Shown here piece after piece: positions 6,036 to 23,384 of a DNA stretch of 64,000 nucleotides. How positions within the stretch are numbered: the stretch's first letter is position 1; each line of letters starts with the position of its first letter. Both the position numbers and the translations under genes were made by a program. The DNA is from Acidimicrobiales bacterium. Its GTDB lineage: Bacteria > Actinomycetota > Acidimicrobiia > Acidimicrobiales > JAVJTC01. Location: positions 124,001-188,000 of the forward strand of contig JAVJTC010000020.1 in the NCBI GenBank assembly GCA_040219085.1, read 5' to 3'. Below the pieces are notes generated by a model. That model did no database searches, was not told the DNA's origin, and was given only the letters and a program-made list of their open reading frames with translations.

Positions 6036-6044
6036 GTGGGTGAG

Positions 6045-6050
6045 ACGATA
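6045..6050 (-). promoter_or_regulatory. -10 box TATCGT, leaderless type
   Basis: On the minus strand TATCGT ends 9 nt before the ATG at 6035 of the UXS-like gene. It is divergent from the box at 6111-6116. Confidence 0.4.
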
Positions 6051-6110
6051 GAGCGCCGCGGCGGTCTCGGATTGCTCAATCTTGGGGAGGGGAACCGAGA
6101 CCGGACGATC

Positions 6111-6116
6111 TACTGT
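6111..6116 (+). promoter_or_regulatory. -10 box TACTGT, leaderless type
   Basis: TACTGT ends 8 nt before the GTG at 6125 and supports that start codon for the cytidylyltransferase gene. Confidence 0.45.
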
Positions 6117-6124
6117 GAAAAGCC

Positions 6125-6901
6125 GTGAAAGCAGTGATACTTGCCGGAGGGTTCGGCACGCGCCTGTCCGAAGAGACCGGTGTGCGCCCCAAGCCCATGG
6201 TCGAGATCGGCGGCCGGCCGATCCTCTGGCACATCATGAGGATCTGCTCGCACTTCGGCATCAACGACTTCGTCGTGTGCTGCGGCTACAAGGGTCACCT
6301 CATCAAGGAGTACTTCGCTTCGTACCACCTCCACGCGTCAGACGTCACCTTCGATCTCGCAAGCGGCGAGATGGCGGTGCACCGTTCCGAGACCGAACCG
6401 TGGCGTGTGACGCTCGTGGACACGGGCGACGCGACGATGACCGGCGGACGGCTCAAGCGTGTCGCCCATCATCTCGGCGACGAGCCCTTCCTGTTCACCT
6501 ACGGAGACGGTGTGGCGTCGATCGACCTCGATGCTCTGCGGGCGTTCCACCAGCAATCCGGGGTCCTGGCGACGATCACGGCGGTCCAACCGCCCGGACG
6601 GTTCGGCGCCTTCCGTCTCGAGAACGGTGCGACGCAGGTGCGCCACTTCCGGGAGAAGCCCCACGGCGACGGGGCGTGGATCAACGCCGGGTTCTTCATC
6701 CTCGAGCCGGACGTCCTTGCCTTCATCGACGGCGACGACACTGTCTGGGAGCGTGATCCGATAGAGCGGCTCGCTGCTGAGGGCCAGCTGAGCGCGTATC
6801 GCCACCAAGGGTACTGGCAGCCGATGGACACCCTCCGGGATCGGATGGTCCTGGAGGAGGCCTGGGAGAGCGGATCGCCGCCATGGAAGCTCTGGGACTG
6901 A
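6125..6901 (+). CDS. rfbF: Glucose-1-phosphate cytidylyltransferase
   Basis: A 258-residue protein, the usual length for RfbF. It makes CDP-glucose from CTP and glucose 1-phosphate. The opening MKAVILAGGFGTRLSEETG, the following VRPKPMVEIGGRPILWHIM and the VVCCGYKGHLIKEYF segment are diagnostic for RfbF against RmlA. The metal-site D appears in LFTYGDGVASIDL, and WINAGFFILEPDVL is also typical. The GTG start at 6125 is backed by a TACTGT box 8 nt upstream. An RmlC-like epimerase follows after 10 nt. A CDP-glucose 4,6-dehydratase, the usual next enzyme, is not in the window. Confidence 0.92.
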   Translation: MKAVILAGGFGTRLSEETGVRPKPMVEIGGRPILWHIMRICSHFGINDFVVCCGYKGHLIKEYFASYHLHASDVTFDLASGEMAVHRSETEPWRVTLVDTGDATMTGGRLKRVAHHLGDEPFLFTYGDGVASIDLDALRAFHQQSGVLATITAVQPPGRFGAFRLENGATQVRHFREKPHGDGAWINAGFFILEPDVLAFIDGDDTVWERDPIERLAAEGQLSAYRHQGYWQPMDTLRDRMVLEEAWESGSPPWKLWD

Positions 6902-6911
6902 ACCAGGCGCC

Positions 6912-7463
6912 GTGATCGTCCACGACCTGCCGATCCGAGGCGCGAAGATCGTCGAGATCGAACCGATCGGCGACGAGCGGGGGTTCTTCGCCCGGGCCTG
7001 GGACCGCGACGAACTCGCAGTCGCCGGGATCGAGATGACCATCGTGCAGGCGAACCTGTCACGCACGGCGAGCGCCGGCACGATACGCGGACTCCATCAT
7101 CAACTTGCGCCCACCGAAGAGGACAAGTACATCCGTTGCACGAGGGGAGCCGCGTGGGAGGTCGTGGTCGACCTGAGACCGTCCTCGCCGACATACCGCC
7201 GGTGGCACGGTGTCGAGTTGTCCGACGAGAACCATCTCGCCTTGTTCGTGCCGAAGGGGTGCGCCCGGGGATTCCAGACCCTCGTCGACGATGTCGAGGT
7301 CTCCTACTCCGTGTCCGCGCCGTACACCCCGGCGAACGAGGCGGGGATCCGCTTCGACGACCCGGCGTTCGGGATCGACTGGCCGCTCGAGGTGACCGTC
7401 GTCTCCGACAAGGATCGTTCCTGGCCCAACTTCGACGGCGACCTCCGTGACCACCACAGGTAG
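6912..7463 (+). CDS. dTDP-4-dehydrorhamnose 3,5-epimerase-like (RmlC family cupin)
   Basis: A 183-residue RmlC-type cupin. It has the entry motif DERGFFARAWDRDE, the catalytic His in TIRGLHHQLAP, and VPKGCARGFQTLVDDVEVSY in the second half of the barrel. Enzymes of this family epimerise C3 and/or C5 of 4-keto nucleotide sugars. It starts with GTG 10 nt after the cytidylyltransferase, so its substrate may be a CDP- or UDP-bound ketosugar instead of the dTDP sugar. A second RmlC homologue (42047-42619) sits inside a complete rml operon and is the better candidate for rhamnose synthesis, so this copy probably has a different task. Confidence 0.82.
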   Translation: MIVHDLPIRGAKIVEIEPIGDERGFFARAWDRDELAVAGIEMTIVQANLSRTASAGTIRGLHHQLAPTEEDKYIRCTRGAAWEVVVDLRPSSPTYRRWHGVELSDENHLALFVPKGCARGFQTLVDDVEVSYSVSAPYTPANEAGIRFDDPAFGIDWPLEVTVVSDKDRSWPNFDGDLRDHHR

Positions 7464-7870
7464 GTTCGATCCTCGAGATGGCCGCGGTGGACCTTGATGC
7501 ATTGAGTCAGAGGGTTCCAGTCGGGTGCATCTCCCACTGCGGTCGTGCCCCATGCCCCGTGTGGGATGTCCCTCTTGCGGACGGGGAACTGGCTTCGTTC
7601 GGAAACGGTAGAGCGCTGTCGATCGTCGGCAGGATCATCTCCGCAATGGCTCATGCCAGGTCGGCGATCTCGTCGACGATCGGGTTCGGGTTGCACTCTC
7701 GGGCAGGGGCGCGGTCTGGGGAGCCGTCCGTAGTCGCCGTCGGAGGCGAACACGGTCGCACCGTGGCATGTAATGACCTCAATGGGCTCCGGCACCTGCC
7801 GATGGGAGTAGGCAAGTAGCCTTTAGGCCACGCGTCCACCGGACGCGCATGCCGGTAGGGAAAGCCCAGC
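7464..7870. other. 407-bp non-coding gap
   Basis: I find no gene here. The open frames on both strands have no recognisable motif, no ribosome site and no codon pattern like the neighbours. The sequence is less GC-rich than the flanks. Near its right end are a TAGCCT box and an inverted repeat, described separately, that probably belong to the chain-length gene. Confidence 0.5.
7817..7847 (+). promoter_or_regulatory. -10 box followed by a perfect inverted repeat
   Basis: TAGCCT lies at 7817-7822. It is followed at 7831-7847 by CGCGTCC-acc-GGACGCG, a perfect 7-bp inverted repeat with a 3-nt centre. The repeat sits 24 nt before the GTG of the tyrosine-kinase gene. It could be an operator or a 5'-UTR hairpin. 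Confidence 0.4.
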
Positions 7871-9913
7871 GTGGAACTCGTCACCTACATCCGACTTCTC
7901 CGGCGCCGCTGGAAGGTTCTGGTCGCATTGACCGTCATCGGCGCGCTCGCGGGTTTCGGCTTCTCGATGCTCGGCGAGGACGAACCCCGCCCGGAGGAGA
8001 TCCAGACCTACTACGCCGCCAACGAGACCCTGCTCGTTCGCTCCGGGGACTCGGTGAACCTGCAACAGACCGCCTTCTTCGTCACGGCGGGCGCGGTTCC
8101 CGACCGGGCACTCGAGATCCTCGACACCGACGACGAGTCCGTGGTGGACCTCGTCCAGACCGTCTACGACAACTCGACCGACACGATCGTCGTCTCGGCC
8201 GCCGGGAGCACCCCCGAAGAGGCGTTCGAGCGGACCCAGGCCTTCGCCGACGCGCTCCTGCTCCAACTCCAGGCCGACCGCCAGACCGACTACGACGCCC
8301 AGGTCGACGCCGTGGAGAGCGAGATCGAGCGCCGTCAGGCGAGCATCGTCGGCTTCGACGAGCAACTTCGCGAGAAGAACGACGAACGCGTCGACCTCTC
8401 CGTGCAGCTCACCGTCCTCGAGGGCCAACTCGAGGCCCTCGGGGGTGCTCCGCTCCCGGCCGAAGGCGAAGCCCCCCCGACTGTTGACACCGCGGCGGAG
8501 GAACTCGCCCAGTCCATCGCTCAGGTCGAGGGTCAGATCGCCGCCATCGACTCCGAGATCGCAGTCCTCAACATCCAACGCGAGTCGGACTTCAGCGCTC
8601 TGCAGAGTGCATTCTCCACCCAGGAGACCCTCGTCGACCAGGGCGCACCGTTGGCTCCGCTGGAGAAGCTCGAGGTGCGGGACCCCTACGAGATAAGCCA
8701 GGGCGAGTTCAACGAGCGCCGCCGCGCCGGTGAGCTCGGCACCGCGAGCTACGGACTCGGCGATGCGGAGATCCCCCGTAGCTCGGGCGGTGGCGGTGGT
8801 GTCACCCAGTCACTCACCGACAACCCGCCGCTCCTCATCGCCGGTGGCGGCATCGTCGGGCTGCTCCTCGGCGTCCTGCTCGTCATCCTGCTCAGCCGTC
8901 TGGACTATCGCATCCGAACCAAGGAGGAGGCCGAGGAACACTTCGGTCTCCCCGTCGTCGCCGAGATCCCGGCGGTGGCCAAGGAGTATCGGAACTCCAC
9001 CGAGGTGCTCGTACAGGTCGAGCCGATGTCGCGTTTCGCCGAGGCCTACCGGTCGCTGCGGTCGGCACTCGTCTATGCCCGGATGATGGGCGAGACCGCC
9101 GACCACGCCAGCTCCGCAGCCGTGGATCCGGTCGACGAGGAGGAAGGTGAGCGGGGCCTCGAGGTCGTCATGGTCGCCTCCCCCGGACCGGGTGAAGGCA
9201 AGACGACCACGGTCGCGAATCTGGCCGCGGCACTCGCGGAACAGGGCTATCAGGTGCTCGCCGTGAACTGCGACTATCGCCGCCCCCGCCTCGTGCACTT
9301 CCTCCAGGGCTCCCACAGCCCCCGCGAGATCTCCGAGACCATCATCCCCGGCGTCTCGATGATCAACCATGTGACCGCCGAGGGCTCCGACGCGCGCCCG
9401 GCTGACGCCCTGGCGGCGCAGCGCCGGGTCATCGAACGTGCCCGCGGGAAGTTCGACGTCGTCCTGTTGGACACAGCACCACTTCTCGCCACCAACGACG
9501 CCAACGAACTCCTGCCGGTGGTGGACCTCGTGCTCGTCGTCGGCCAGGTCGGCAGGACCACCAAGGAGATGGCCGAGAAGGCCCGCGAGTTGCTCCTGCG
9601 CCGCGGCGCACCGGTCATCGGCCTGGCGCTCGTAGGTGTCACCGACACCGTGAGCGCAGCGGGCTACTACTACTACTCGAGTTCGGCCAAGGGTAAGGGC
9701 CGCAAGCGCGGCCCCACGGGTGAGACCATCGCGCGCAACGTCGCCGACGGGACGGGCGCTTCCGCCGATTCCGATGTCAGCCCCACCACGGCGAAAGCCA
9801 ACGGAGATCGGGCGGAGGAGGCCGACGCGGACGACGGTCCGGGCGGCGGTGAGGGCGACGCCCAGACGCTGGAAGGGGCCGAATCGTCGCGATGGTGGCG
9901 ACGAGGGGCCTAA
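7871..9913 (+). CDS. Polysaccharide co-polymerase with cytoplasmic tyrosine kinase (Wzz-BY-kinase)
   Basis: A 680-residue protein. Residues 1-35 hold a Wzz-type start (LVTYIRLLRRRWKVLVALTV) with the first membrane segment. Residues 40-315 are the extracytoplasmic loop, with a coiled-coil-rich part at about 155-250, and a second membrane segment lies at about 317-340. The kinase half carries a Walker A motif SPGPGEGKTTT (K444), a divergent Walker A' VNCDYRRPR and Walker B VVLLDTAPLL. A tyrosine cluster, Tyr599-602, followed by a basic and then acidic tail is the likely autophosphorylation site. Such proteins set chain length in Wzy-dependent polysaccharide export. The gene overlaps the next by 22 nt. 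Confidence 0.9.
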   Translation: MELVTYIRLLRRRWKVLVALTVIGALAGFGFSMLGEDEPRPEEIQTYYAANETLLVRSGDSVNLQQTAFFVTAGAVPDRALEILDTDDESVVDLVQTVYDNSTDTIVVSAAGSTPEEAFERTQAFADALLLQLQADRQTDYDAQVDAVESEIERRQASIVGFDEQLREKNDERVDLSVQLTVLEGQLEALGGAPLPAEGEAPPTVDTAAEELAQSIAQVEGQIAAIDSEIAVLNIQRESDFSALQSAFSTQETLVDQGAPLAPLEKLEVRDPYEISQGEFNERRRAGELGTASYGLGDAEIPRSSGGGGGVTQSLTDNPPLLIAGGGIVGLLLGVLLVILLSRLDYRIRTKEEAEEHFGLPVVAEIPAVAKEYRNSTEVLVQVEPMSRFAEAYRSLRSALVYARMMGETADHASSAAVDPVDEEEGERGLEVVMVASPGPGEGKTTTVANLAAALAEQGYQVLAVNCDYRRPRLVHFLQGSHSPREISETIIPGVSMINHVTAEGSDARPADALAAQRRVIERARGKFDVVLLDTAPLLATNDANELLPVVDLVLVVGQVGRTTKEMAEKARELLLRRGAPVIGLALVGVTDTVSAAGYYYYSSSAKGKGRKRGPTGETIARNVADGTGASADSDVSPTTAKANGDRAEEADADDGPGGGEGDAQTLEGAESSRWWRRGA

Positions 9914-11376
9914 CGCCGGGACCGCCGGCTCCGAGACCCACGACGACCCGGGATCGGCTCTCGGGTTGGTGGAGCCTCGGGATCGTCCTGCTCGTCGTCG
10001 CGTTCGTGCTGTTCGGCTACGGACAGGTCAACGGGAACCGGACGATCACGGGCTTCCTTGCAGCTCCCGCCCTGTTGCTGATCACGTGGCCGATCATCCG
10101 GTCCCAACAGAAGCGGGATCTGGGCTTCGACCTGGCCGGCATCATGTTCGCCGGTCTCGCCGCCAAGTTCATCGGCGTCTTCGTCCGCCTCTGGGTCGTG
10201 GAGGACGTCTACGACGGCAACGGCGACTCGACCCAGTACCACATCATCGGGCGTTCGTTCGTAGACCAGATCCGCAGTCTCGACTTCGACTTGGAGACGA
10301 CCCGACCTGTCCCCGGTACCGGCTTCATGCAACTCCTCACCGGGTACATCTACGCTGTGGTGGGCAGCTACAAGTTCGTCGGCTTCATGGTGTTCGGGTT
10401 CTTCGCCTACCTGGGCGCTTTCTTCTTTTACAAGGCCTTCGAGACGGCCATCCCCGACGGCGACCGCAAGAAGTTCGCGATCCTCGTGTTCTTCTGGCCT
10501 TCTCTCTTGTACTGGCCTTCGGCGATCGGTAAGGAGGCGTGGGTCCTCTTCGGTCTCGGCATTGCGGCATACGGACTCGCTCGCGCCTACACCGGTCGAC
10601 GGGGTGGTTTCCCGCTTCTCATGTTGGGCGCCCTCATCGCCTACGGGCCGCGCCCCCACATCGCGATACTGGTTGTGACAGCGGGCGCCGTCGGCTTGAT
10701 GATGTCGTGGATCTTCAAGACCGAGGATCATGTCCGTTCGGCGAGCCTCTTCTCGAAGGTGCTCGGGGTGATCGTGATCGTCGGTTTCGGAGCTTGGTTG
10801 GCACCCCAGGTCGCCTCGTTCCTCAACGTCGACGACGTCGGCGGCTCGGGGTTCACCGAAGCGCTCGACGCGGCCGAGGTGCGCACCGACGAGGGTGGAT
10901 CCTCGTTCGCCGCGGCCCGGGTCGAGAGCCCCGCCGACTACCCCTGGGCCTTCGTGACCGTTCTGTTCCGGCCCCTGCCGTTCGAGGTCAACAACGCCCA
11001 GTCGGCGGTCTCGGCGCTCGAAGGTCTGATGCTGCTCGGGCTGTTCTTCGTGTCGACCCGCCGCCTGCTGCGCCTGCCGGCATCGGTGATGCGGAGCCCT
11101 TACGCCGCGATGGCGGTCGGGTTCGTGTTCTCGTTCGTCTACGTCTTCTCGACGATCGGCAACTTCGGGATCCTCGCCCGCCAGCGCACCCAGGTGATCC
11201 CGTTCCTGTTCGTGCTCGTCTCGCTACCGCTGGCTGAGGAGGTGCGGATCAAGCGGGAGGAGTACCGCAAGCGGCAGGCTGAGGCGCGCATGGCTCGCAG
11301 GAAGGAACGTTCCATCGTCGAGCATCCGAAGCTCGACGTCGTGACCCGGGGGCTAGGCCCGCCGAGAAAGCGCTGA
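9892..11376 (+). CDS. Multi-spanning membrane protein, candidate Wzy-type polymerase
   Basis: A 494-residue integral membrane protein with about ten hydrophobic segments, a long extracytoplasmic loop (about residues 95-140) and another at about 310-370, and a basic cytoplasmic C-terminus rich in R/K. Sequence motifs do not identify it: polymerases are poorly conserved. The polymerase idea rests on topology and on its 22-nt overlap with the chain-length kinase gene, which implies coupled translation. It could instead be a flippase accessory or an EpsG-like protein. The start at 9892 is an ATG inside the kinase gene; a later start near residue 20 cannot be excluded. Confidence 0.65.
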   Translation: MVATRGLTPGPPAPRPTTTRDRLSGWWSLGIVLLVVAFVLFGYGQVNGNRTITGFLAAPALLLITWPIIRSQQKRDLGFDLAGIMFAGLAAKFIGVFVRLWVVEDVYDGNGDSTQYHIIGRSFVDQIRSLDFDLETTRPVPGTGFMQLLTGYIYAVVGSYKFVGFMVFGFFAYLGAFFFYKAFETAIPDGDRKKFAILVFFWPSLLYWPSAIGKEAWVLFGLGIAAYGLARAYTGRRGGFPLLMLGALIAYGPRPHIAILVVTAGAVGLMMSWIFKTEDHVRSASLFSKVLGVIVIVGFGAWLAPQVASFLNVDDVGGSGFTEALDAAEVRTDEGGSSFAAARVESPADYPWAFVTVLFRPLPFEVNNAQSAVSALEGLMLLGLFFVSTRRLLRLPASVMRSPYAAMAVGFVFSFVYVFSTIGNFGILARQRTQVIPFLFVLVSLPLAEEVRIKREEYRKRQAEARMARRKERSIVEHPKLDVVTRGLGPPRKR

Positions 11377-11379
11377 CGA

Positions 11380-11895
11380 TCAGTCGTCGTCGGGCAAACA
11401 GAAGGTGACGACGATGTGGCTGATGTCGTCTGCTGTCAGCGTGACGACTTTGTCACCGGAGGTCGACACCGTGGTCGATGCGTTGCGGTGAGTGGTCGAG
11501 CATTGGGGTCCGCCGCCACCAGGAGTCCCCGACTTGTTGTAGGCGATGATGTTCGATGCCGTGCTCGGCAACGTAATGGTGTGACTGGTCGAGGTCAGGG
11601 TGCCAACGGTCACGTGTGGGCAACCGTCGGCCCACGAGCTCTGTGCGTTCGGGGGCGACGACGGTGCACAGGGATGATTGTCGGCGTCGTCGCAGGGGGG
11701 CGAGTCACCACGGTCGATCTTGACTCGGTAGTAGGTGTCGCATTGGGGCTCGCCGCCGCCACCGGTCTGAGCCGCAGCGGGGGTGACTACCGAGGAGACG
11801 ACCGGAGCAGCCCACACGATGGCGGCACCGACGCCGGCCTTCTTGAGGAGGTCTCGGCGTGATTCACGGTGCGCTTCGAAGTCTTCGTTTTCCAT
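11380..11895 (-). CDS. Tat-exported small Ser/Thr/Cys-containing protein, unknown function
   Basis: A 171-residue protein with a clear twin-arginine leader: ESRRDLLKKAGVGAAIVWAA, then a hydrophobic stretch and an AAAQ cleavage region near residue 43. The mature part (about 128 residues) has six Cys, two Gly-rich linkers, many Ser and Thr, and an acidic end (CLPDDD). I know no domain for it. It ends 3 bp from the convergent polymerase-like gene. Upstream lie a TATGAT box and a nested hairpin, then an HprK-PqqD gene on the same strand. The context suggests a possible substrate of that kinase, but export by Tat would require modification before transport. That link is inference. Confidence 0.72.
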   Translation of the reverse strand: MENEDFEAHRESRRDLLKKAGVGAAIVWAAPVVSSVVTPAAAQTGGGGEPQCDTYYRVKIDRGDSPPCDDADNHPCAPSSPPNAQSSWADGCPHVTVGTLTSTSHTITLPSTASNIIAYNKSGTPGGGGPQCSTTHRNASTTVSTSGDKVVTLTADDISHIVVTFCLPDDD

Positions 11896-11943
11896 CGGTC
11901 CGTCCGGGTCTGTGCGAGGTCGATCGTTGGAATCAACAGGTGC

Positions 11944-11973
11944 ATCATACGCCTCTCTGTGGCCGGGAAGCCA
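11944..11973 (-). promoter_or_regulatory. Promoter of the Tat-protein gene
   Basis: On the minus strand TGGCTT (11968-11973), an 18-nt spacer and TATGAT (11944-11949) resemble a housekeeping promoter. It would leave a leader of roughly 40 nt before the ATG at 11895. Confidence 0.5.
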
Positions 11974-11981
11974 CCCCCAAC

Positions 11982-12025
11982 CTCTCTGCGTGAGGCGTCC
12001 GCCTCACCCGTCACCACTCAGAGAG
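11982..12025 (-). terminator. Nested hairpin after the HprK-PqqD gene
   Basis: The inner stem is GTGAGGCG-tc-CGCCTCAC (11990-12007, 8 bp perfect). The outer arms CTCTCTG (11982-11988) and CAGAGAG (12019-12025) also pair. It starts 21 nt after the kinase stop and lies upstream of the Tat-gene promoter. There is no U-tract, so it may act as a terminator or as a regulatory structure. Confidence 0.45.
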
Positions 12026-12045
12026 AGCATGCAGTCCCGTGCCGC

Positions 12046-13203
12046 TCACTCAGAGTAGCGATCGACGACTCCTTCGTGGCTCAGCGAGTTCAAGAGGGCC
12101 ACTACGTCGTCGCCGATGTCCCTGCTTGCGAGCCCGGTGGCCGAAGCCACCGCGTGCGTGACGGCGCCCACATCGCGGGTTCCGTCGAGCGCCTCCCAGA
12201 AGCCGACGGGCATCGGCTCGATCCGCACGAGGCGGTCGGATCCCTCGGTGCACAGCACAGCGCAGCCTTCGACGACGACGCCACCGACCCCGCGGGCCCA
12301 GTGCACCCCGGCGTCATCGCGGACCACGTCGCGCGCCGCCAGCCGGGCCACCGACCACGCGGGGCGGGCTGCGACCCAGGCGGTCCCGATCGCTGCGATC
12401 CGCTCGTCGATGGAACCGCCTCCGATTTCCACGACCGGGCAGGCGGCGGCGAGATCGGCTGCGATCGACAGGCCCGCGGGACGACCCAGCCGTGCCATGT
12501 CGAAAGCGTGCTCGACGATCGCCATGACCGCATCTCCGGGCCCGAGAACCGTCGGGCCCGGTCCCGTAGCGGCTTCCCCGGGGACCTCGGCTCGCAGCAC
12601 GACCACCGAGCGCGGCGTCATGACGCCTTTCGCCGTGGCGGCGATGGTGTCGGCGCGTACGTAACGCCTCGGGGGCTCGGGATCCTCGACCCCGGGTATC
12701 TCCCCGACCAGCAGCCGCGTCCCGGGTTTGATCGTGAGAGGTTTGTACAGCGCGGTGACCGCCTCGGCGCCGGGCGCCACCCACGCGATCTCATCGGTCA
12801 TGTAGCGCCATCCCCGGCGGGCGAGGGCGAGCGCCGTCGTGGTCTTGCCCGCGCCCGTGTCGCCGAGTACCAACAACGCCTCGCCGTCGCGCTCGAGGAC
12901 CGCGGCGTGCAGGCTGAGTCGGTCACCGGCGTGATCCACAGCTGCCCGGTTGATGCCTGCGATCAGCCGGTCGAGCACCACCGGCAGCGACAACCCGTTC
13001 TGGTGTCCGTGACCGACTCCGCTCAGCGAGAAGGAGTCTCCGTCGCCGCTGATGCGCACGTCGAGATCGGGCTTCTCGGTTTCGGGTGGTGCGACGGCGT
13101 CGACGAACAGATCGCGCACGACGGCGGCCGCATCGGGCCTCGCGACGACTCCCACGACCATCACGGGGAACCGAAGCTCGAAGGCATCCGTTTCCGATTC
13201 CAC
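12046..13203 (-). CDS. HprK-like kinase fused to a PqqD-like domain
   Basis: A 385-residue protein from the GTG at 13203. Residues 90-300 match HPr kinase/phosphorylase-like P-loop proteins: LHAAVLERDGEALLV, Walker A GDTGAGKTTT (K120), then RGWRYMTDEIAWV with the acidic D137-E138 pair. Residues about 305-385 resemble PqqD (FWEALDGTRDVGAVTHAVAS), a peptide-binding fold that presents precursors to modifying enzymes. HprK relatives phosphorylate Ser residues, including in some lasso-peptide clusters. A minus-strand TATCCT box 7 nt before 13203 fixes this start; the frame is open further upstream to 13269. It is divergent from a free PqqD gene, and the Tat-exported protein lies downstream. Confidence 0.8.
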   Translation of the reverse strand: MESETDAFELRFPVMVVGVVARPDAAAVVRDLFVDAVAPPETEKPDLDVRISGDGDSFSLSGVGHGHQNGLSLPVVLDRLIAGINRAAVDHAGDRLSLHAAVLERDGEALLVLGDTGAGKTTTALALARRGWRYMTDEIAWVAPGAEAVTALYKPLTIKPGTRLLVGEIPGVEDPEPPRRYVRADTIAATAKGVMTPRSVVVLRAEVPGEAATGPGPTVLGPGDAVMAIVEHAFDMARLGRPAGLSIAADLAAACPVVEIGGGSIDERIAAIGTAWVAARPAWSVARLAARDVVRDDAGVHWARGVGGVVVEGCAVLCTEGSDRLVRIEPMPVGFWEALDGTRDVGAVTHAVASATGLASRDIGDDVVALLNSLSHEGVVDRYSE

Positions 13204-13210
13204 CGGGCGG

Positions 13211-13216
13211 AGGATA
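13211..13216 (-). promoter_or_regulatory. -10 box TATCCT, leaderless type
   Basis: On the minus strand TATCCT ends 7 nt before the GTG at 13203 and decides the start of the HprK-PqqD gene. Confidence 0.5.
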
Positions 13217-13264
13217 GGTGCCCGCACGGATCGGACTGTCGACCGGGGCGGTGCTGCGCTTTCG

Positions 13265-13270
13265 TACACT
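13265..13270 (+). promoter_or_regulatory. -10 box TACACT, leaderless type
   Basis: TACACT ends 7 nt before the GTG at 13278 and decides the start of the PqqD gene. It is divergent from the TATCCT box about 50 bp to the left. Confidence 0.5.
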
Positions 13271-13277
13271 TGTCACC

Positions 13278-13667
13278 GTGATCGACAGCGACCATCGGCC
13301 CCGTCCCACGGCCGAAGCGACCCTCCTCGAGGTCGATGGGGCAACCGTGGTCTTCGACAGGGGATCGGGAGCGGCCCATGCGCTCAATGAGACCGCCGCC
13401 TTGTTGTGGCGGGTGTTCGACGGCGAGGGGACCATTGCGGAGATCGCAGCGGACGTGGCCGATGCCTTCGACGTACCCGCCGAGGCCGCTCTCGACGACG
13501 TCTCGAACCTGGTCGACCAACTCGGTCGGATCGGCGCGCTCGAAGGGATAGGTGCCCGCCACCCGGCAGACCCCGTCGCCCCCGACGACTGCGATGACGA
13601 CGAGACGCCCGTCGAGCGCGACCCGTTCAGTGAACCGCCCTACATCGCCGTACCGCCCAACAACTGA
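13278..13667 (+). CDS. PqqD family protein with acidic tail
   Basis: A 129-residue protein from the GTG at 13278. Residues 10-90 are PqqD-like: LLEVDGATVVFDRGSGAAHA, LNETAALLWRVFDGEGTIAE and a final helix ending near GRIGAL, matching the wHTH-like RiPP-recognition fold. The tail (about 95-129) is acidic and then Pro-rich. The frame closes with UGA followed by C. The next gene continues in the very same frame with no start codon for 23 codons, so readthrough or a recent fusion break is possible. Such PqqD proteins sit beside HprK-like kinases in exopolysaccharide and lasso-peptide loci. Confidence 0.78.
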   Translation: MIDSDHRPRPTAEATLLEVDGATVVFDRGSGAAHALNETAALLWRVFDGEGTIAEIAADVADAFDVPAEAALDDVSNLVDQLGRIGALEGIGARHPADPVAPDDCDDDETPVERDPFSEPPYIAVPPNN

Positions 13668-14435
13668 CTCGAGGGAAGCTTCCGCACCGGGAGTGCGGTC
13701 ACGGACAGCTTCGAGGTCGGCGCGCACCTGCTCGGAGTGCGATGGAGCACCGACGAGTGCGCCCACCTGCTGCGTGATGTTCTCGGCGGGGCACACCGGG
13801 CCGACGTTCCCGCGCCGGCGAACTTCGGCGTCGTCGTCGGCGGAACCGTTGACGGCGTCACGACCAAGCACACGCTGTACCGGGCGAACCGACGCGTGTT
13901 GCGCACCAGGTCGATGTCCCGGGTCGCTCGCGCACTGGTTCGCGGGCTCGGCGAACACGCAATGGCGGCGCCAGGCGACGAATGCGTGGACCTGGAGGCC
14001 GTGGTCGTCGTGGCGGGGGACACCGCCACCCTTGTCGACCGCCGCCTCGCGTGGGTTCTCGACGACCACGCTGCGGATATCGCAAAGGCCGGCCTGAAGA
14101 TGGTGGACACCGGTGTGGTGCGGGTGGACCTCGGGACCTCGGAGGTCGATCTCACCCTCCCGGGCGAGTGGGACAGGCGTTGGCGCAACGTCGACGTCGA
14201 CCGCCCGGACCGCCTGGAGATGCGCCACCCGGCCGCCCGCTACCCGCTGTCCGGTGTCATCATCGGCGGAATCATCGACAGCGCCGTGCCCCTTGTGGTG
14301 TCGGCGATGTCACTGTGCGCCCTCACCGAACCGATCCCTCTTGCCGCCGTCGAGCGGTGGGTCGAAGTCGGCGCCGGTATCGACATCGCCACCTACCCGG
14401 GCGTCGATGAGATGGTCGCCGCCCTCACGGCCTGA
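13668..14435 (+). CDS. HprK-like protein without P-loop (unknown function)
   Basis: The first usable start is GTG at 13737 (232 residues), but the frame is open from 13668, directly after the PqqD UGA, and those 23 codons (SFRTGSAVTDSFEVGAHLLG) look like a natural beta-strand start. I therefore give the whole open region. No ribosome site or TANNNT box precedes 13737. The middle part, DLEAVVVVAGDTATLVDRRL then AGLKMVDTGVVRVDL, follows the layout of HprK-like kinases (HA-strand, loop, helix, D-containing strand) but lacks GxxxxGKT. I infer a degenerate, non-ATP-binding relative. It may be a partner or scaffold of the HprK-PqqD kinase across the divergent promoter. Confidence 0.55.
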   Translation, partial: LEGSFRTGSAVTDSFEVGAHLLGVRWSTDECAHLLRDVLGGAHRADVPAPANFGVVVGGTVDGVTTKHTLYRANRRVLRTRSMSRVARALVRGLGEHAMAAPGDECVDLEAVVVVAGDTATLVDRRLAWVLDDHAADIAKAGLKMVDTGVVRVDLGTSEVDLTLPGEWDRRWRNVDVDRPDRLEMRHPAARYPLSGVIIGGIIDSAVPLVVSAMSLCALTEPIPLAAVERWVEVGAGIDIATYPGVDEMVAALTA

Positions 14436-14469
14436 CCTTCGCCGTGGTTTCGGCGACCACCGCGGCCGG

Positions 14470-14475
14470 TACCTT
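14470..14475 (+). promoter_or_regulatory. -10 box TACCTT, leaderless type
   Basis: TACCTT ends 8 nt before the GTG at 14484, the start of a 29-codon frame. It is the main support for that small gene. Confidence 0.42.
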
Positions 14476-14483
14476 GTTGCGTC

Positions 14484-14573
14484 GTGAGCACCCGCATGCT
14501 GATCGCGCTGGCCCTCGCCTGCGGCGTGGCGATCCTGATCGCCTTCACCGTCCAGTTGATGCTCGCCCGCTGA
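14484..14573 (+). CDS. 29-residue single-span membrane peptide
   Basis: The frame GTG(14484)-TGA(14573) encodes 29 residues: a short polar start (STR), one hydrophobic span of about 20 residues (LIALALACGVAILIAFTVQL) and a final Arg. A TACCTT box stands 8 nt upstream, the same arrangement as at larger leaderless genes nearby. It falls between the HprK-like gene and the first beta-helix gene promoter. It could be a small membrane regulator or partner of the kinase/PqqD cassette. No homologue is known to me, and short frames arise by chance, so confidence is moderate. Confidence 0.45.
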   Translation: MSTRMLIALALACGVAILIAFTVQLMLAR

Positions 14574-14598
14574 GCAGTGGGCCGCCCCGGGCCGATCC

Positions 14599-14627
14599 TT
14601 GGCACGGAATCCATCGCCGCGTAGGGT
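14599..14627 (+). promoter_or_regulatory. Promoter of beta-helix gene 1
   Basis: TTGGCA (14599-14604), a 17-nt spacer and TAGGGT (14622-14627). The same layout precedes the two paralogues. The leader before ATG 14664 is about 30 nt and contains TTGGAG as ribosome site. Confidence 0.65.
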
Positions 14628-14663
14628 GTGACAGTTCGGGTGGTCGAGAGCTTTGGAGTGAAC

Positions 14664-16499
14664 ATGCGCAGGTTGGCCGCATTGTTGTTGGGGGCTGCGG
14701 CGGTTGTCGTTGCGGTCCTGTTCCTGGCGGGCTCGTCGGCCTCGGCGTTGACGTCGTATGTGGTGACGACTGACGCGGATTCGGGTCCGGGCTCGCTGCG
14801 GGCCGCGCTCGACCTCGCCGACGACGACGCTGATGACTCGGTGATCACCTTCGCCGACGGTGTCGACGTGATCGAGTTGGGCGACGGTCTCGAGTTCGAG
14901 GAGGCCGGCTATTCCCTGACCATCCTCGGCGGCGGGGTGACGATCACCGACGTCGATGACAGCAGCTGCTGCGTCGCCCTCCTCTGGATCAATGACGCGT
15001 CGGCGGTGACGTTGCGCAACATCACCTTCGACGACGGCCCCAACGACGGCCTGTACATCTCGGATCCGACGAGCGATTTCACGCTCCTGCTCGACGGTTT
15101 CACGGCTTCCAACAACGAGAGCAACGGCCTCGCGCTCAACCAGGACGACGACGACTACGCCCTGGACGTCACGATCAAGAACAGCTCGTTCACCGGCAAC
15201 GGCGACGACGGCGCCTCCCTCGTCCAGTACTACGACGAGCCGATGAGTGTGTACGTCGTCAACTCCACCTTCTCCGGCAACGGCGACGATGGTCTCGACG
15301 CCGCGCACGAGGGAGTCGCAGACTTCTTCGACGACTTCACAGTGACACTGCGGAACTCGGTGTTCACCGGGAACGGGTCCGAGGGGGCTTACCTCTACCG
15401 CGACGAGGACTACTTGATCGACGCGATCGTGGACGGTTCACACTTCGACGGCAACGGCCTCGTCGACTCCGACGCGGCGGGGCTCTGGGCGTACGCGGAG
15501 TACGGCGGCGTCGACATGGCGGTGACCGGCTCGACCTTCGACGACAACCCGTGGGGCCTCTACATCGAGGCGGGCGACGACGAGGAGACCTCGGAGGACA
15601 CGGTTGTGTCGATCTCGGGATCCCAGGCGAACGGGAACGTCGAAGACGGATTCACCGTCGAGTACTACGGCGAGGACGACGAGACCGTGTCGGTCACGGT
15701 CACGAATTCGGAGGCGAAGGGCAACGGTGACGACGGCCTCGACTTCTACGCCGAGTACTACGTCGACGACATGACGCTCGACGTGGCCGGATTCGACGCC
15801 TCCGGCAACGGCGATTCCGGGATCGAGATGGACAACGACACCGAGGACGGCGAGAGCTACGTCACCATCACCGGCTCCCAGTTGGTCGGCAACGAGTGGG
15901 GCGCCTGGATCAACCAGGACTACGCGATGCTCGAGGTCACCGTGACCGGCTCGAACTTCGCGTCGAACGGCGATGACGGTCTCGAAGTGGAGAACGACGA
16001 GGGCGAAATCCTCCTGACGGTCGTGGCGTCGAGGTTCGTGAACAACGGTGACGACGGGTTGTATGTGGACAACGAGGACGAGCCGACGACGGCGACGCTG
16101 ACGGCGTCGCAGTTCTCGGGCAACGGTGACGACGGTGCTGACTTCTTCAGCGACTACGACGGTGGGAGCTTCGATGTGACCGCACGGTTGTCGAAGTTCG
16201 AGGACAACGGCGAGGACGGTCTCGACGTCGAGGCTGAAGACTGCGACGACGTGGAGATGCGGGTGCTGTTCTCTCAGGCGAACGGCAACACGGAGTCGGG
16301 TTTCCAGCTCGATGCGTGTGAGTTCGAGGAAGCCACCGGTTTCTTCCTTGTGGCTACCGCGACGGGCAACGGTGGGCCGGGTGTGGAGATCTCTGGCGGG
16401 TCCGGTCTGGTCTGGCTCCTGTTCTCGGATCTTCTGGGCAATTCGGGTGGCAAGTTCACCGCTGATCCTGGTGTGACGGTGCTGCCGATCGGTTCCTGA
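14664..16499 (+). CDS. Secreted Asp-rich right-handed beta-helix protein 1
   Basis: A 611-residue protein with a signal peptide or N-terminal anchor (MRRLAALLLGAAAVVVAVLF, SSASA region near 25-29). The mature start SYVVTTDADSGPGSLRAALD is typical of parallel beta-helix surface proteins. The body is a chain of imperfect repeats built on S-x-F-x-GNGDDGL-x-V, one per 30-40 residues, strongly acidic. The end (LVWLLFSDLLGNSGGKFTAD) is shared by all three paralogues. The repeats suggest Ca2+-dependent stacking, by analogy with other Asp/Gly-rich repeats; no lyase active site is evident. ATG 14664 follows TTGGAG by 5 nt. It is probably an adhesin or matrix protein, with function not proven. Confidence 0.78.
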   Translation: MRRLAALLLGAAAVVVAVLFLAGSSASALTSYVVTTDADSGPGSLRAALDLADDDADDSVITFADGVDVIELGDGLEFEEAGYSLTILGGGVTITDVDDSSCCVALLWINDASAVTLRNITFDDGPNDGLYISDPTSDFTLLLDGFTASNNESNGLALNQDDDDYALDVTIKNSSFTGNGDDGASLVQYYDEPMSVYVVNSTFSGNGDDGLDAAHEGVADFFDDFTVTLRNSVFTGNGSEGAYLYRDEDYLIDAIVDGSHFDGNGLVDSDAAGLWAYAEYGGVDMAVTGSTFDDNPWGLYIEAGDDEETSEDTVVSISGSQANGNVEDGFTVEYYGEDDETVSVTVTNSEAKGNGDDGLDFYAEYYVDDMTLDVAGFDASGNGDSGIEMDNDTEDGESYVTITGSQLVGNEWGAWINQDYAMLEVTVTGSNFASNGDDGLEVENDEGEILLTVVASRFVNNGDDGLYVDNEDEPTTATLTASQFSGNGDDGADFFSDYDGGSFDVTARLSKFEDNGEDGLDVEAEDCDDVEMRVLFSQANGNTESGFQLDACEFEEATGFFLVATATGNGGPGVEISGGSGLVWLLFSDLLGNSGGKFTADPGVTVLPIGS

Positions 16500-16528
16500 C
16501 CCGGGCCGACCCACCAAAGACTCGATTC

Positions 16529-16563
16529 ACGGGCCGCCACCCCTCCGGGGGGTGGCGGCCCGT
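16529..16563 (+). terminator. Hairpin after beta-helix gene 1
   Basis: A 13-bp perfect stem, ACGGGCCGCCACC and GGTGGCGGCCCGT, with a 9-nt loop, starts 29 nt after the stop. There is no long U-tract. Almost the same hairpin follows both paralogues. Confidence 0.7.
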
Positions 16564-16580
16564 TGCGATTCCGGTAGTCC

Positions 16581-16609
16581 TTGGCAATCGCGCTACTGCG
16601 CTCTATGGT
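16581..16609 (+). promoter_or_regulatory. Promoter of beta-helix gene 2
   Basis: TTGGCA (16581-16586), a 17-nt spacer and TATGGT (16604-16609), 17 nt after the preceding hairpin. Confidence 0.65.
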
Positions 16610-16646
16610 CCACACGTCCACGTTCGGCGGTCGAGGAGATCCCCAA

Positions 16647-18563
16647 GTGCGCAGGTTGATGGTTCTGGTGATGGCTGCTGGTGCAGCGATCGTGGCGGTA
16701 CTGGTCCTGGCGGGTTCGTCGGCGTCGGCGTTGACGTCGTATGTGGTGACGACCGATGCCGATTCGGGTCCGGGTTCGTTGCGCGCTGCGCTCGACCTGG
16801 CCGACGACGATGGTGACGATTCGCTCATCGCGTTCGCTGACGGTGTGGAGACGATCGAGTTGGGCGACAGCCTCGAGTTCGAGGAGGCGGGTTACTCGCT
16901 GACCATCCTCGGTGGTGGCGTGACGATCACCGACGTCGACGACACCAGCGACAGCGGCACTGCGATGCTGTCGATCTACGACGCGGCGGCCGTGACGCTG
17001 CGGAACGTCACGCTCACCGACGGGCCCAACGACGGCGTGTACATCGAGGATCCGGGGAGCGACTTCACGCTCCTGCTCGACGGTTTCACGGCCTCGGACA
17101 ATGAGAGCAACGGGGTCGCACTGAACCAGGACGACGATGACTACGACGTGGACGTCACGGTCAAAGACAGCACGTTCTCGGGCAACGGCGACGACGGGCT
17201 GTACCTTTATCACAACTACGACGCAGCGATGACCGTGTACGTGGTGGGATCCACGTTCTCGGGCAACGGCGACGACGGACTCGATGCCAATCATTCCGAC
17301 ACCGGCGATCTCGCCGTGACCCTGCGGAACTCGTCCTTCACGGGCAACGGCGACGACGGCGCCGAGATCGAACGGGACAACGACTACAAGGTCGTCCTGA
17401 CCGTCGACGGTTCGCACTTCGACGGCAACGGCCTGGACGGGTTCGACGAGGATGGCGATGGCCTCGAAGTCGACGCGGAGTATGGAGGCGTGGACGCGAC
17501 GATCACGGGTTCGACTTTCGATGACAACTTCGCGTGGGGTTTGCGCATCGACGCAGGCGAGGACGGCGAGGACAGCGAGGACACGGATGTGTCGATCTCG
17601 GGTTCTCAGGCGAACGACAACGGCGAAGACGGGATCCTCGTCCAGTTCGAGGGCGACGACTACGAGTCGGTTGCGGTGACGGTCACGGATTCGGAGGCGA
17701 ACGGCAACGCCGATGACGGCTTGGACTTCTACGCCGAGTACTACGTCTCGACGATGGACCTCACGTTGACCGGGTTCGCGGCTTCCAACAACGGCGACGA
17801 CGGCGTCGACATGGACAACGACACCGAAGACGGTGAGAGCACGGTGTCGATCCGCGGGTCAGAGATCATCGGTAACGCCGACGACGGCGTGACGCTGAAC
17901 CAGGACTACGCCGATCTCACTGTGGATGTGTCGGCGTCGCTGTTCCTCAACAACGGTGGCGAAGGTCTCCAGGTCGAGAATGATGAGGGTGACATCTACC
18001 TGACCGTCACGGGGTCGCAGGTCAGGGGCAACGACGGAGACGGGCTCGCCGCACAGAACGACTACGACGACATCTATTTGACGGTTACGGCGTCGCAGTT
18101 CAAGAACAACGTCGGTGACGGCTTGTACACCGACAACGACTACGGCGACACGATGGCGACGTTGACGGCGTCGGAGTTCTCGGCCAACGGTGACGACGGG
18201 GCGGATCTCTACAGCGACTACGACGGCCTGGTCGACGTGTCGGTGCGGTTGTCGAAGTTCGAGGACAACAGCGGCGATGGTCTCGACATCGAGTCCTTTG
18301 ACTGTGATGACGTCGAGGCGAGGGTGTTGTTCTCGCAGGCCAATGGCAACGCGGGGAACGGTTTCGAACTCCAGGCGTGTGATGAGGTCAGTGGGTTCTT
18401 CCTGGTGGCCACCGCGAATGGCAACGGCGGGGCTGGTGTCGGTGTCGAGGTGGATCCGGGTGGCGGCGGCCTCGTCTGGCTGTTGTTCTCGGACCTTCTG
18501 GGCAACTCGGGTGGCAAGTTCACCGCTGATCCGGGTGTGACGGTGCTGGCGATCGGGTCCTGA
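16647..18563 (+). CDS. Secreted Asp-rich right-handed beta-helix protein 2
   Basis: A 638-residue paralogue of proteins 1 and 3. I start it at GTG 16647 (RRLMVLVMAAGAAIVAVLVL signal), which aligns with the other two and follows a GAGGAG site by 8 nt. An upstream in-frame start would begin inside the promoter. The mature region repeats the SYVVTTDADSGPGSLRAALD start and GNGDDGLYLY, GNGDDGLDAN, GNGDDGAEIE-like units. One extra repeat near residues 445-470 (GNDGDGLAAQNDYDDIYLTV) explains its greater length. The C-terminal module is nearly identical to the others. Export is by Sec or with a retained anchor. Function is inferred only as surface or matrix protein. Confidence 0.78.
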   Translation: MRRLMVLVMAAGAAIVAVLVLAGSSASALTSYVVTTDADSGPGSLRAALDLADDDGDDSLIAFADGVETIELGDSLEFEEAGYSLTILGGGVTITDVDDTSDSGTAMLSIYDAAAVTLRNVTLTDGPNDGVYIEDPGSDFTLLLDGFTASDNESNGVALNQDDDDYDVDVTVKDSTFSGNGDDGLYLYHNYDAAMTVYVVGSTFSGNGDDGLDANHSDTGDLAVTLRNSSFTGNGDDGAEIERDNDYKVVLTVDGSHFDGNGLDGFDEDGDGLEVDAEYGGVDATITGSTFDDNFAWGLRIDAGEDGEDSEDTDVSISGSQANDNGEDGILVQFEGDDYESVAVTVTDSEANGNADDGLDFYAEYYVSTMDLTLTGFAASNNGDDGVDMDNDTEDGESTVSIRGSEIIGNADDGVTLNQDYADLTVDVSASLFLNNGGEGLQVENDEGDIYLTVTGSQVRGNDGDGLAAQNDYDDIYLTVTASQFKNNVGDGLYTDNDYGDTMATLTASEFSANGDDGADLYSDYDGLVDVSVRLSKFEDNSGDGLDIESFDCDDVEARVLFSQANGNAGNGFELQACDEVSGFFLVATANGNGGAGVGVEVDPGGGGLVWLLFSDLLGNSGGKFTADPGVTVLAIGS

Positions 18564-18592
18564 GCCGGCCGGATCCGCCGCAGAGTTCGTTT

Positions 18593-18628
18593 CACGGGCC
18601 GTCTTCCTTCCGGGGGAGGCGGCCCGTG
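18593..18628 (+). terminator. Hairpin after beta-helix gene 2
   Basis: The outer stem CACGGGCCG (18593-18601) pairs with CGGCCCGTG (18620-18628), with further inner pairing of TCTTCC and GGGGGA. It is the same family as the hairpins at 16529 and 20569. Confidence 0.65.
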
Positions 18629-18644
18629 GCGTTTCCGGTATTCC

Positions 18645-18673
18645 TTGGCGTAGGAGCGCCCCTCCTCTACAGT
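18645..18673 (+). promoter_or_regulatory. Promoter of beta-helix gene 3
   Basis: TTGGCG (18645-18650), a 17-nt spacer and TACAGT (18668-18673), 16 nt after the preceding hairpin. Confidence 0.62.
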
Positions 18674-18706
18674 GCACCCGGTCCGAACTCGATCGTTGGG
18701 GTGATG

Positions 18707-20539
18707 ATGCGCAGGTTGATGGTTCTGGTGATGGCTGCTGGTGCAGCGGTCGTGGCGGTGGTGATGTTGGCTGGTTCGTCGGCGTCGGCGTTGACGTCGT
18801 ATGTGGTGACGACCGATGCCGATTCGGGTCCGGGTTCGTTGCGCGCTGCACTCGACCTCGCGGACAGTGACGGCGACGACTCGATCATCACGTTCGGGCC
18901 GGCTGTCGATGCCGTGACGGCGCTGAGCCAGCTCACGTATGCGCCGGATGAGTCACCGAGCTACGACCTTACGATCCTCGGCGGCGGGGTCACGATCGAC
19001 CGGCCCCTGGAGCTGGACACCGTCGGCGACGTCACGATCCGCAACATGACCGTCGACCTCACCACGCCGGGCACGGGCATCGATATCGAGATCTACGACG
19101 GCCCAGCCGCTGTTGTCCTCGACCGTGTCACGGTCACCGGTGCGACGGGTGAGGGTGTGTTCATCGGCCAGGATGACGGTGCCCAGCCGCTGACCGTGTC
19201 GATCCTGTACAGCGCGTTCACGGGCAACGGGAGTGATGGTGTCGAGGTCTACGCCGACCAGAACGGGTCCGTGGACGTGACGGTGAGGAGTTCGACGTTC
19301 GTGGGTAATGGCACGTTCGGCCTCGAGGTGGCTCAGGAGAACGATCCCGGGGGAGCGATCTCCGAGGTGACCATCCTCGACAGCAGCTTCACCGGCAACG
19401 GCGAGGACGGTGCCCACCTCTACAACTACTGGTCCACGCTGGACGTCGACATCACCGGCTCGCACTTCGACAGCAACGGCACCGGTGGTGAAGGCGATGG
19501 GCTGCTGGCCCGCAATGAGAGCGGCGGGGTCACACTCGCCGTCTCCGGTTCGACGTTCGACGGCAACTCAGACGACGGGTTGCGCCTCGGCGTCGGCGAT
19601 GTCGACGAAAGCCGTGACACGTCCATCACCGTGCGCAGCTCGCAGATGGTGGGCAACGACGACGAGGGTGCCGAGATCGACTTCGAAGGTTGGGACGGCG
19701 AGGAGTTCACGCTGAGCTTCACCGATGTCCGCGTGGCTGACAACGGCGAGACGGGACTCGAGGTGGACGTGGATGACGAGATCGGTGCTGCGACGGTGAC
19801 ACTGACCAGGGTCGAGGTCATAGGGAACAACGCATCCGGAAGCGAGGACGGCGGCGTCGACATCGACTTCGACGAGACGGACGGGGCGACCACGTCGGTG
19901 TCGGTCCGTCAGTCGACCTTCTTGGGTAATGGCGAGGACGGTCTGTCCATCAATCAGGACTACGACGACATCACCGTGGACGTGTCCACGTCGGTATTCC
20001 GCAACAACGGTGACGACGGTCTCGAGGTGGAGAACGACGAGGACGACATCTACCTGACCGTGACGGCATCGCAGTTCGCGAACAACGGTGACGATGGCTT
20101 GTACATCGACAACGACTACCGCGACACGATGGCGACGCTGACGGCGTCGCAGTTCTCCGGCAACGGTGACGACGGAGCGGATCTCTACAGCGAATACGAC
20201 GGCTCCTTCGACGTGTCGGTGCGTCTGTCGAAGTTCGAGGACAACGGCGAGGACGGTCTCGACGTCGAGTCCTATGGCGATGACGGCTGTGGCGATGTGG
20301 ACATGCGGGTTGTGTTCTCGCAGGCGACTGGCAACGTCGAGTCGGGGTTCCAGCTCGATGCGTGTGACGAGGCGTCGGGGTTCTTCCTGGTCGTCACGGC
20401 GACCGGTAATGGCGGACCGGGTGTGGAGATCGAAGGTTCGTCGGGTCTGGTGTGGTTGTTGTTCTCTGATCTTCTCGGTAATTCGGGCGGAAAGTTCACC
20501 GCTGATCCGGGTGTGACGGTGCTGGCGATCGGTTCCTGA
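18707..20539 (+). CDS. Secreted Asp-rich right-handed beta-helix protein 3
   Basis: A 610-residue paralogue. ATG 18707 is used because it aligns the signal sequence MRRLMVLVMAAGAAVVAVVM with copy 2; ATG 18704 or GTG 18701 are alternatives. The first 60 codons are almost identical to copy 2 at the DNA level. Residues about 65-250 differ from both other copies (no EFEEAGYSLTILGGG block, other repeat spacing), while the last 200 residues again match closely. This mosaic pattern points to gene conversion or exchange between the copies. The repeats (NGDDGLEVEN, NGDDGLYIDN, NGEDGLDVES) are strongly acidic. Probable surface protein; ligand unknown. Confidence 0.78.
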   Translation: MRRLMVLVMAAGAAVVAVVMLAGSSASALTSYVVTTDADSGPGSLRAALDLADSDGDDSIITFGPAVDAVTALSQLTYAPDESPSYDLTILGGGVTIDRPLELDTVGDVTIRNMTVDLTTPGTGIDIEIYDGPAAVVLDRVTVTGATGEGVFIGQDDGAQPLTVSILYSAFTGNGSDGVEVYADQNGSVDVTVRSSTFVGNGTFGLEVAQENDPGGAISEVTILDSSFTGNGEDGAHLYNYWSTLDVDITGSHFDSNGTGGEGDGLLARNESGGVTLAVSGSTFDGNSDDGLRLGVGDVDESRDTSITVRSSQMVGNDDEGAEIDFEGWDGEEFTLSFTDVRVADNGETGLEVDVDDEIGAATVTLTRVEVIGNNASGSEDGGVDIDFDETDGATTSVSVRQSTFLGNGEDGLSINQDYDDITVDVSTSVFRNNGDDGLEVENDEDDIYLTVTASQFANNGDDGLYIDNDYRDTMATLTASQFSGNGDDGADLYSEYDGSFDVSVRLSKFEDNGEDGLDVESYGDDGCGDVDMRVVFSQATGNVESGFQLDACDEASGFFLVVTATGNGGPGVEIEGSSGLVWLLFSDLLGNSGGKFTADPGVTVLAIGS

Positions 20540-20568
20540 CCCGGGCCGACCCGCCAAAGAGTCGATTC

Positions 20569-20603
20569 ACGGGCCGCCTCCCCTCCGGGGGGAGGCGGCC
20601 CGT
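20569..20603 (+). terminator. Hairpin after beta-helix gene 3
   Basis: A 13-bp perfect stem, ACGGGCCGCCTCC and GGAGGCGGCCCGT, with the same 9-nt loop as the hairpin at 16529-16563. Two compensating changes keep the pairing, so the structure itself seems to be maintained. Confidence 0.7.
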
Positions 20604-20648
20604 TGCCATTCCCGGCGCGGGCTGAGCGAACAACACGAGCAACAGTGG

Positions 20649-20654
20649 TAACAT
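20649..20654 (+). promoter_or_regulatory. Probable -10 box TAACAT of the M23 gene
   Basis: TAACAT lies 28 nt before the ATG at 20683, with AGGTGA just before the start as ribosome site. No clear -35 is seen. Confidence 0.35.
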
Positions 20655-20682
20655 AATCCCCGGCAAGCGGGCTGCCAGGTGA

Positions 20683-21924: not shown

Positions 21925-21963
21925 TCGCGACACGCTCCGGCTGGGGCATACCGGCTCGGCCGA

Positions 21964-21969: not shown

Positions 21970-21976
21970 CGGGCCA

Positions 21977-23371: not shown

Positions 23372-23384
23372 GAGGAGAGATTGA

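Follow-up and report, generated by a model that had tools for sequence, protein, structure and literature searches.

The cassette and its predicted selenoprotein gene

The 64,000-nucleotide stretch of contig JAVJTC010000020.1 (assembly GCA_040219085.1) of an Acidimicrobiales bacterium, hereafter the window, carries a cassette of three genes. On the minus strand lie a gene for a protein exported by the twin-arginine translocation (Tat) pathway (11380..11895), with the signal SRRDLLKKAGVGAAIVWAAP and a beta-rich mature part containing six cysteines, and a gene for an HprK-related kinase with the P-loop GDTGAGKT and a C-terminal PqqD domain (12046..13269), whose start codon, at 13269 or downstream, is uncertain. 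The plus strand holds a predicted selenoprotein gene (13278..14435) that begins with GTG at 13278, ends with TGA at 14433-14435 and extends to amino acid 385. It encodes, in order, a PqqD or RiPP (ribosomally synthesized and post-translationally modified peptide) recognition element (RRE) domain (amino acids 1-90; 13278..13547), an in-frame UGA at 13665..13667 that is predicted to specify selenocysteine (Sec) at residue 130 in the context ...AVPPNN-U-LEGSFRTGSA..., a predicted bacterial selenocysteine insertion sequence (bSECIS) hairpin of the form CCGCAC-CGGGA-GUGCGG (13682..13698), whose apical loop starts 20 nt past the UGA, and an HprK-like domain (13698..14432). No Walker A P-loop was found in this last domain, and it is therefore called a pseudokinase here.

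The initial annotation had described five consecutive small genes at this place. Its Tat protein and its P-loop kinase fused to PqqD were recovered as described. The free PqqD gene and the P-loop-less HprK-like gene were recognized correctly as an open reading frame (ORF) ending at 13667 and as an HprK-like stretch reaching 14435, the latter now with support for its fold, but they are not separate genes, since the frame of the first continues past the UGA into the second. The fifth member, a 29-aa membrane peptide (14484..14573, plus strand), has no relative in any related locus and is not counted as a part of the cassette.

With a probability of about 0.85, the sequence of 13278-14435 is best read as one selenoprotein, in which a PqqD domain and an HprK pseudokinase are joined across a Sec inserted at the UGA by means of the hairpin at 13682-13698. 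The single frame, the conservation of the UGA, its replacement by Cys, the covariation of the hairpin, the presence of Sec machinery and the conservation of the cassette were all found computationally; the insertion of Sec in the cell is what we infer.

The PqqD domain matches PF05402 at 58.4 bits and TIGR04353 at 38.4 bits (cut-off 35), with 36.5 bits in the fusion. In an AlphaFold2 model of the selenoprotein (pLDDT 76), residues 1-90 form the winged-helix PqqD/RRE fold, which matches the lasso-peptide protein B1 (6jx3) with a Z score of 13.0 over 85 residues, and the Sec opens a short helix (129-133) that follows a disordered linker. The P-loop-less part has no match in NCBIfam or Pfam, and its model resembles the HprK C-terminal domain 2qmh with a middling Z score of 7.5 over 108 residues. 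The active kinase reaches 69.2 bits to TIGR04352, which has a cut-off of 200, and shows sub-threshold matches to PF07475 and PF05402; the kinases of four relatives score 48-121 bits to TIGR04352.

One reading frame through a conserved UGA

The HprK-like stretch continues the frame of the PqqD ORF directly past the UGA, and ATG, GTG and TTG are absent from the 24 codons that follow it in the window. The corresponding start-free runs are 54, 31 and 52 codons long in the related loci L007, L089 and L096, though homology begins at once. A start at GTG 13737 (residue 154) would remove strand 141-147 and part of the next strand of the predicted structure. The junctions of the window and of two relatives from other families (L007 and L010) read ...VPPNN-TGA-LEGSFRTGSA, ...VPPNA-TGA-LDRSFRLGEA and ...EPPNP-TGA-LDKSFPLGSA. 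When the joined protein, with TGA read as a residue, was used as a search profile across the class, order and phylum, the matches spanning the junction contained either no stop or exactly one TGA, and never TAA or TAG. In total, 22 UGA junctions in the same frame were recovered from 20 genomes across the phylum, two pairs being near-copies, and most of them share the motif [YF]LxxPPxP-UGA-[LGM]. Uniform use of UGA at the 22 junctions is unlikely to arise by chance, because UGA accounts for only about 62% of the stops in the related loci. The diversity by codon position past the UGA was uninformative as a coding test, third positions being nearly all G or C, and a scan of genome contigs with a single sequence returned no relative, whereas a two-sequence alignment as query found one.

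Two genomes carry two separate UGA-containing PqqD-HprK genes each (L007 and L098 in G052, L010 and L100 in G004). Two further loci (L009:10795-11661 and L103 9142-9975) are variants with a PqqD gene of its own or in a different frame; there, a short tail at the N-terminus of the HprK-like protein carries the Sec.

Cysteine in place of the UGA

At least seven natural PqqD-HprK fusions (L014, L021, L015, L143, L008, L091, and L093) carry Cys at the junction, as in ELPRP-C-MDSSFTLGDAG (L014), CLPC-GSK (L021), CSSC-IES (L015) and CESC-MEA (L143). A thioredoxin-like domain precedes the junction Cys in L008, L091 and L093, in the last of these as judged by sequence. Only four columns are nearly invariant when 17 sequences are aligned, and the U/C column is among them; in L023, the Cys is displaced from the junction. 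On a tree, loci with UGA are intermixed with those that have Cys; there are six label changes, at least two of which are forced by well supported branches, while the deep forks are weak and the end branches measure about 0.8 changes per site.

The PqqD domain, the thioredoxin-like domain and the HprK pseudokinase are united in one fused protein in L008:8229-10154 and L071:1884-3542, with the thioredoxin-like domain adjoining the junction Cys in both. The thioredoxin-like domain of the former has a CGYC motif, and L071 shows a weak resemblance to the selenoprotein family NF041054 (WAxxUGC).

A SECIS-like hairpin at a fixed distance

The bacterial SECIS is modelled as a small hairpin with a G at one of the first two loop positions and a loop 16-37 nt past the UGA (PMC13188914). 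Under the rules applied here (loop 3-9 nt, stem 4-16 bp, minimum free energy at most -7.5), the window hairpin passes with -8.7 kcal/mol, a 6 bp stem and the 5-nt loop CGGGA at +20; the stem alone is weaker than -7.5 in L016, L022 and L090. An unguided RNAalifold prediction on 16 loci gave the same 6-bp stem, with an invariant loop G and both-sided changes in five of the six stem pairs. The covariation score was 0.544 compared with 0.226 in shuffles (0/500 reach the observed value) and at most 0.18 in slid versions, and the result recurred on a second alignment with new loci.

The position of the hairpin is likewise constrained. The best hairpin has a stem of at least 6 bp (6-8 bp) and a loop start at +20 or +21 in 19 of the 22 loci, whereas 4.4 are expected from synonymous-codon shuffles that keep the protein sequence fixed (P ~3e-14, kinship not corrected). 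All six loci outside the class, which were found later by the protein profile only, have the hairpin at +20. In Cys homologues, the best hairpin is found at +22 to +35 instead. When folding energy alone is compared with that of synonymous shuffles, the signal is weaker (Fisher P 6e-4). A search of viral contigs for a SECIS-like DNA pattern found none.

Selenocysteine machinery

The genome of the window (G000) encodes a tRNA-Sec (64.9 bits, over the cut-off) with anticodon UCA by ARAGORN, and SelB at 283.8 bits (cut-off 242). It also encodes a formate dehydrogenase whose reading frame contains a UGA in the context DSCNRT-U-HAPSVVG (L120, G000:C4:90985-92853) and whose SECIS loop is GGUCU. Among the 20 genomes with the UGA form, tRNA-Sec is present in 15 and SelB in two of the others, so that 17/20 hold one or both. 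Neither tRNA-Sec nor SelB was found in the complete genome G080, which carries the Cys form, or in G139.

The Tat protein and the conserved neighborhood

In a profile search of 25 related loci, nearly all had a P-loop HprK and PqqD domains next to the selenoprotein or to the form with Cys. The co-occurrence that the initial annotation had proposed to look for is thus seen: the kinase, PqqD, the P-loop-less HprK domain and the Tat protein stand together in families that are only distantly related, within the order, within the class and within the phylum. A gene for NTP_transf_5 (PF14907) is present in 15/25 of these loci and a Wzc-like gene in 11/25; NTP_transf_5 gave no profile match in window positions 4000-24000.

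The signal RRxxLKK...W[AST]AP marks a small Tat protein in at least 12 of the 25 loci, a set that includes loci truncated at the end of a contig. No such protein was found in control DNA from similar genomes, 154 kb in total. The Tat protein adjoins the selenoprotein or the Cys form outside the order as well. In the genome of the window, the family consists of two members only, the Tat protein of the window itself and another whose gene comes immediately behind a second PqqD gene; both adjoin a PqqD gene, which fits a handling of the Tat protein by PqqD. A known unrelated domain in the Tat protein, which had been named as a finding that would speak against a peptide-directed cassette, was not seen, the mature part having no match in NCBIfam or Pfam. 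A structure model of the Tat protein was too uncertain (pLDDT 61), and Foldseek returned no usable match.

The mature parts are diverse and mostly Cys-bearing, and many end in a beta-strand-like segment with Cys (VVTFC, EFAFC, SEIVVC, LIYC). The Cys near the C-terminus is a candidate modification site. Alternating hydrophobic residues with Cys near the end were noted at the C-termini of the window protein and of those in L007, L010, L075, L076, L078, L079, L107, L109 and L162. At the second site in the genome of the window (L114:9433-10045, G000:C34), a tiny Tat precursor, of which about 40 aa (EANSDFFGGNQTWGGNQTFGGNQKREPFFWLRALFNWLFRLFGR) make up the mature part, is encoded after the PqqD gene and near glycosyltransferase-like genes; this precursor looks like a Tat-exported RiPP-like peptide.

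Possible function

PqqD and RRE domains bind substrate peptides, which is the established role of RREs. The likeliest role of the cassette, though a tentative one, would be a selenol-dependent maturation that PqqD guides and that the Tat protein undergoes ahead of its export. The PqqD domains would hold the Tat protein in the cytoplasm, where the selenol, carried on a flexible arm beside the catalytically dead kinase domain, might perform thiol/selenol redox or exchange chemistry on the Tat protein or on a thioredoxin-like partner. The active kinase may phosphorylate the Tat protein, and the Tat pathway would then export the folded, modified protein to the envelope. Redox or exchange chemistry is suggested because the Cys forms contain fused thioredoxin-like domains and CxxC motifs, and the simplest redox target would be the Tat protein, which is rich in Cys and has to be folded by the time the Tat pathway exports it. 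The broader picture, in which an RRE-guided Sec enzyme, a pseudokinase and an HprK kinase jointly modify a folded Tat substrate before export in a system spread across uncultured Actinomycetota, is likewise conceivable but far from secure. The initial annotation had already suggested that the cassette modifies or senses a peptide, perhaps the Tat protein, and the adjacency of both Tat family members to a PqqD gene agrees with it, but the selenoprotein was missed there because the UGA was taken as the end of a gene.

In the main functional alternative, the Sec protein would serve the kinase as a redox sensor in the regulation of exopolysaccharide production and would not be a Tat-modifying enzyme. 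Pseudokinase and kinase pairs are often regulatory, and such a pair is what the cassette contains; Wzc-like, NTP_transf_5 and nucleotide-sugar genes are also frequent neighbors. However, the Tat protein is the most specific partner, and the 18 kb examined around the second Tat peptide of the genome, which adjoins a PqqD gene, gave no profile match to HprK or Wzc. The sensor role is considered rather unlikely. Control of envelope polymers by the cassette, as put forward by the initial annotation, is only suggested, hinted at by the Wzc and nucleotide-sugar neighbors.

Alternative readings of the junction

Several observations weigh against Sec insertion or against the function proposed for it. 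An ATG follows the UGA in L090, L144 and L145, where a restart would be possible, and the hairpin of L090 is weak. Gln occupies the junction in L020, so the residue is not strictly required. Neither tRNA-Sec nor SelB was found in three draft genomes with the UGA form (G487, G896 and G924; 61-83% complete), although a Sec formate dehydrogenase is present in G487. The Sec trait is common in the order (235/397 genomes), and the presence of the machinery is therefore weak evidence, consistent with Sec insertion and not decisive. The proposal of the Tat protein as substrate draws on gene neighborhood.

If the UGA were an ordinary stop, the PqqD and HprK-like proteins would be separate and the second would be made by coupled re-initiation at a non-standard start past the UGA. 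This would suit the many loci in which CTG follows the UGA, in addition to the three with ATG, as well as the facts that the two genes always touch and that UGA stops are common in such GC-rich genomes. Yet CTC, GGx, ACG or CAG takes this place in other loci, conserved residues start immediately past the UGA, the Cys fusions of L014, L021, L143 and L008 run through without a stop, and the hairpin is kept at a fixed distance, which together render separate proteins highly improbable.

Programmed read-through of the UGA with an ordinary residue such as Trp would also yield one protein. UGA-CU is a leaky context in other systems and occurs in many of the loci, but UGA-GG or UGA-AU occurs in many others; moreover, the hairpin fits the bSECIS model, the fusions carry Cys and not Trp, and Sec machinery is found in 17/20 genomes. 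Insertion of an ordinary residue is accordingly given very little credence. The hairpin could also be a by-product of the conserved residues RLGEA or RLGWA and not a SECIS, as these favor a hairpin at that spot in 0-47% of shuffles and individual loci give only moderate results when folding energies are compared with those of synonymous shuffles. It is hard to reconcile such an origin with the 19 hairpins observed for 4.4 expected at a fixed protein sequence, or with the shifted peak in Cys homologues, and it is considered highly unlikely. Natural fusions exist, so a UGA in one genome could be the mark of a broken PqqD-HprK fusion or a sequencing error, but an identical UGA with its flanking motif in 20 genomes of many families, across end branches as long as those noted above, makes this explanation negligible.

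Relation to known systems

The predicted PqqD–Sec–HprK pseudokinase shares with bacterial selenoproteins such as FdhA the in-frame UGA, the hairpin just past it with a loop G, the Cys homologues, SelB and tRNA-Sec, and the GGUCU loop of the Sec-FdhA of the same genome recurs in two members of the PqqD–HprK family. It differs from most known bacterial selenoproteins, which are enzymes with a metal cofactor or adopt a thioredoxin-like fold. A list of 87 prokaryotic selenoprotein families (PMC9312934, Table 1) includes no protein of the PqqD or HprK type, and a 2026 review (PMC13188914) mentions neither. Among open-licence papers, preprints excluded, no paper on a selenoprotein with PqqD was found, and HPr kinase gave only an unrelated genome paper. 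The protein thus looks like a selenoprotein family not described before.

Other known systems pair HprK-like and PqqD proteins. In the HPr-rel-A system (TIGR04352 HprK_rel_A and TIGR04353 PqqD), an HprK-related kinase adjoins PqqD, often with NTP_transf_5, and the PqqD domain of the window passes TIGR04353. However, the kinase reaches 69 of the 200 bits required, and the family titles of that system include no selenocysteine, pseudokinase fusion or Tat protein. The SynChlorMet cassette has the same pairing (ScmC HprK-like, ScmD PqqD), but the scores are 25.5 and 33 for cut-offs of 125 and 100, respectively, and no radical SAM enzymes were seen among the scanned neighbors. Lasso-peptide systems share the RRE fold, as the match to B1 indicates, and its presence in the same locus as an HprK-type kinase; the proposed substrate here is a Tat-exported protein and not a short leader-core peptide. 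No lasso B2 protease or C cyclase was found among the scanned genes of 1.5-22 kb, a set that does not include all window ORFs.

Gene finders would split such a protein at the UGA and leave half of it hidden, and the loci are probably misannotated throughout the phylum. If the Sec reading is true, Sec chemistry would extend beyond thioredoxin-like and metal-cofactor enzymes into substrate-guided protein modification, and the orphan HprK/PqqD loci of polysaccharide clusters would gain a substrate and a chemistry open to testing, namely the Tat protein and a selenol.

Flanking genes

A role of the cassette in anti-phage defence was considered and rejected, as PADLOC gave only meaningless P-loop matches. 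Profile scans of the window place sugar-nucleotide genes, a Wzc-like protein and a membrane protein to the left of the cassette, and three tandem beta-helix proteins and an M23 peptidase to its right. On the left, positions 7871-11376 encode a Wzc-like chain-length determinant/autokinase followed by a large polymerase-like membrane protein without a Pfam match. On the right, adjoining the cassette at 14628-20539, are the three exported right-handed beta-helix proteins of 623, 660 and 637 aa (PF13229), whose N-termini are almost identical (SSASALTSYVVTTDADSGPGSLRAALDLADDD).

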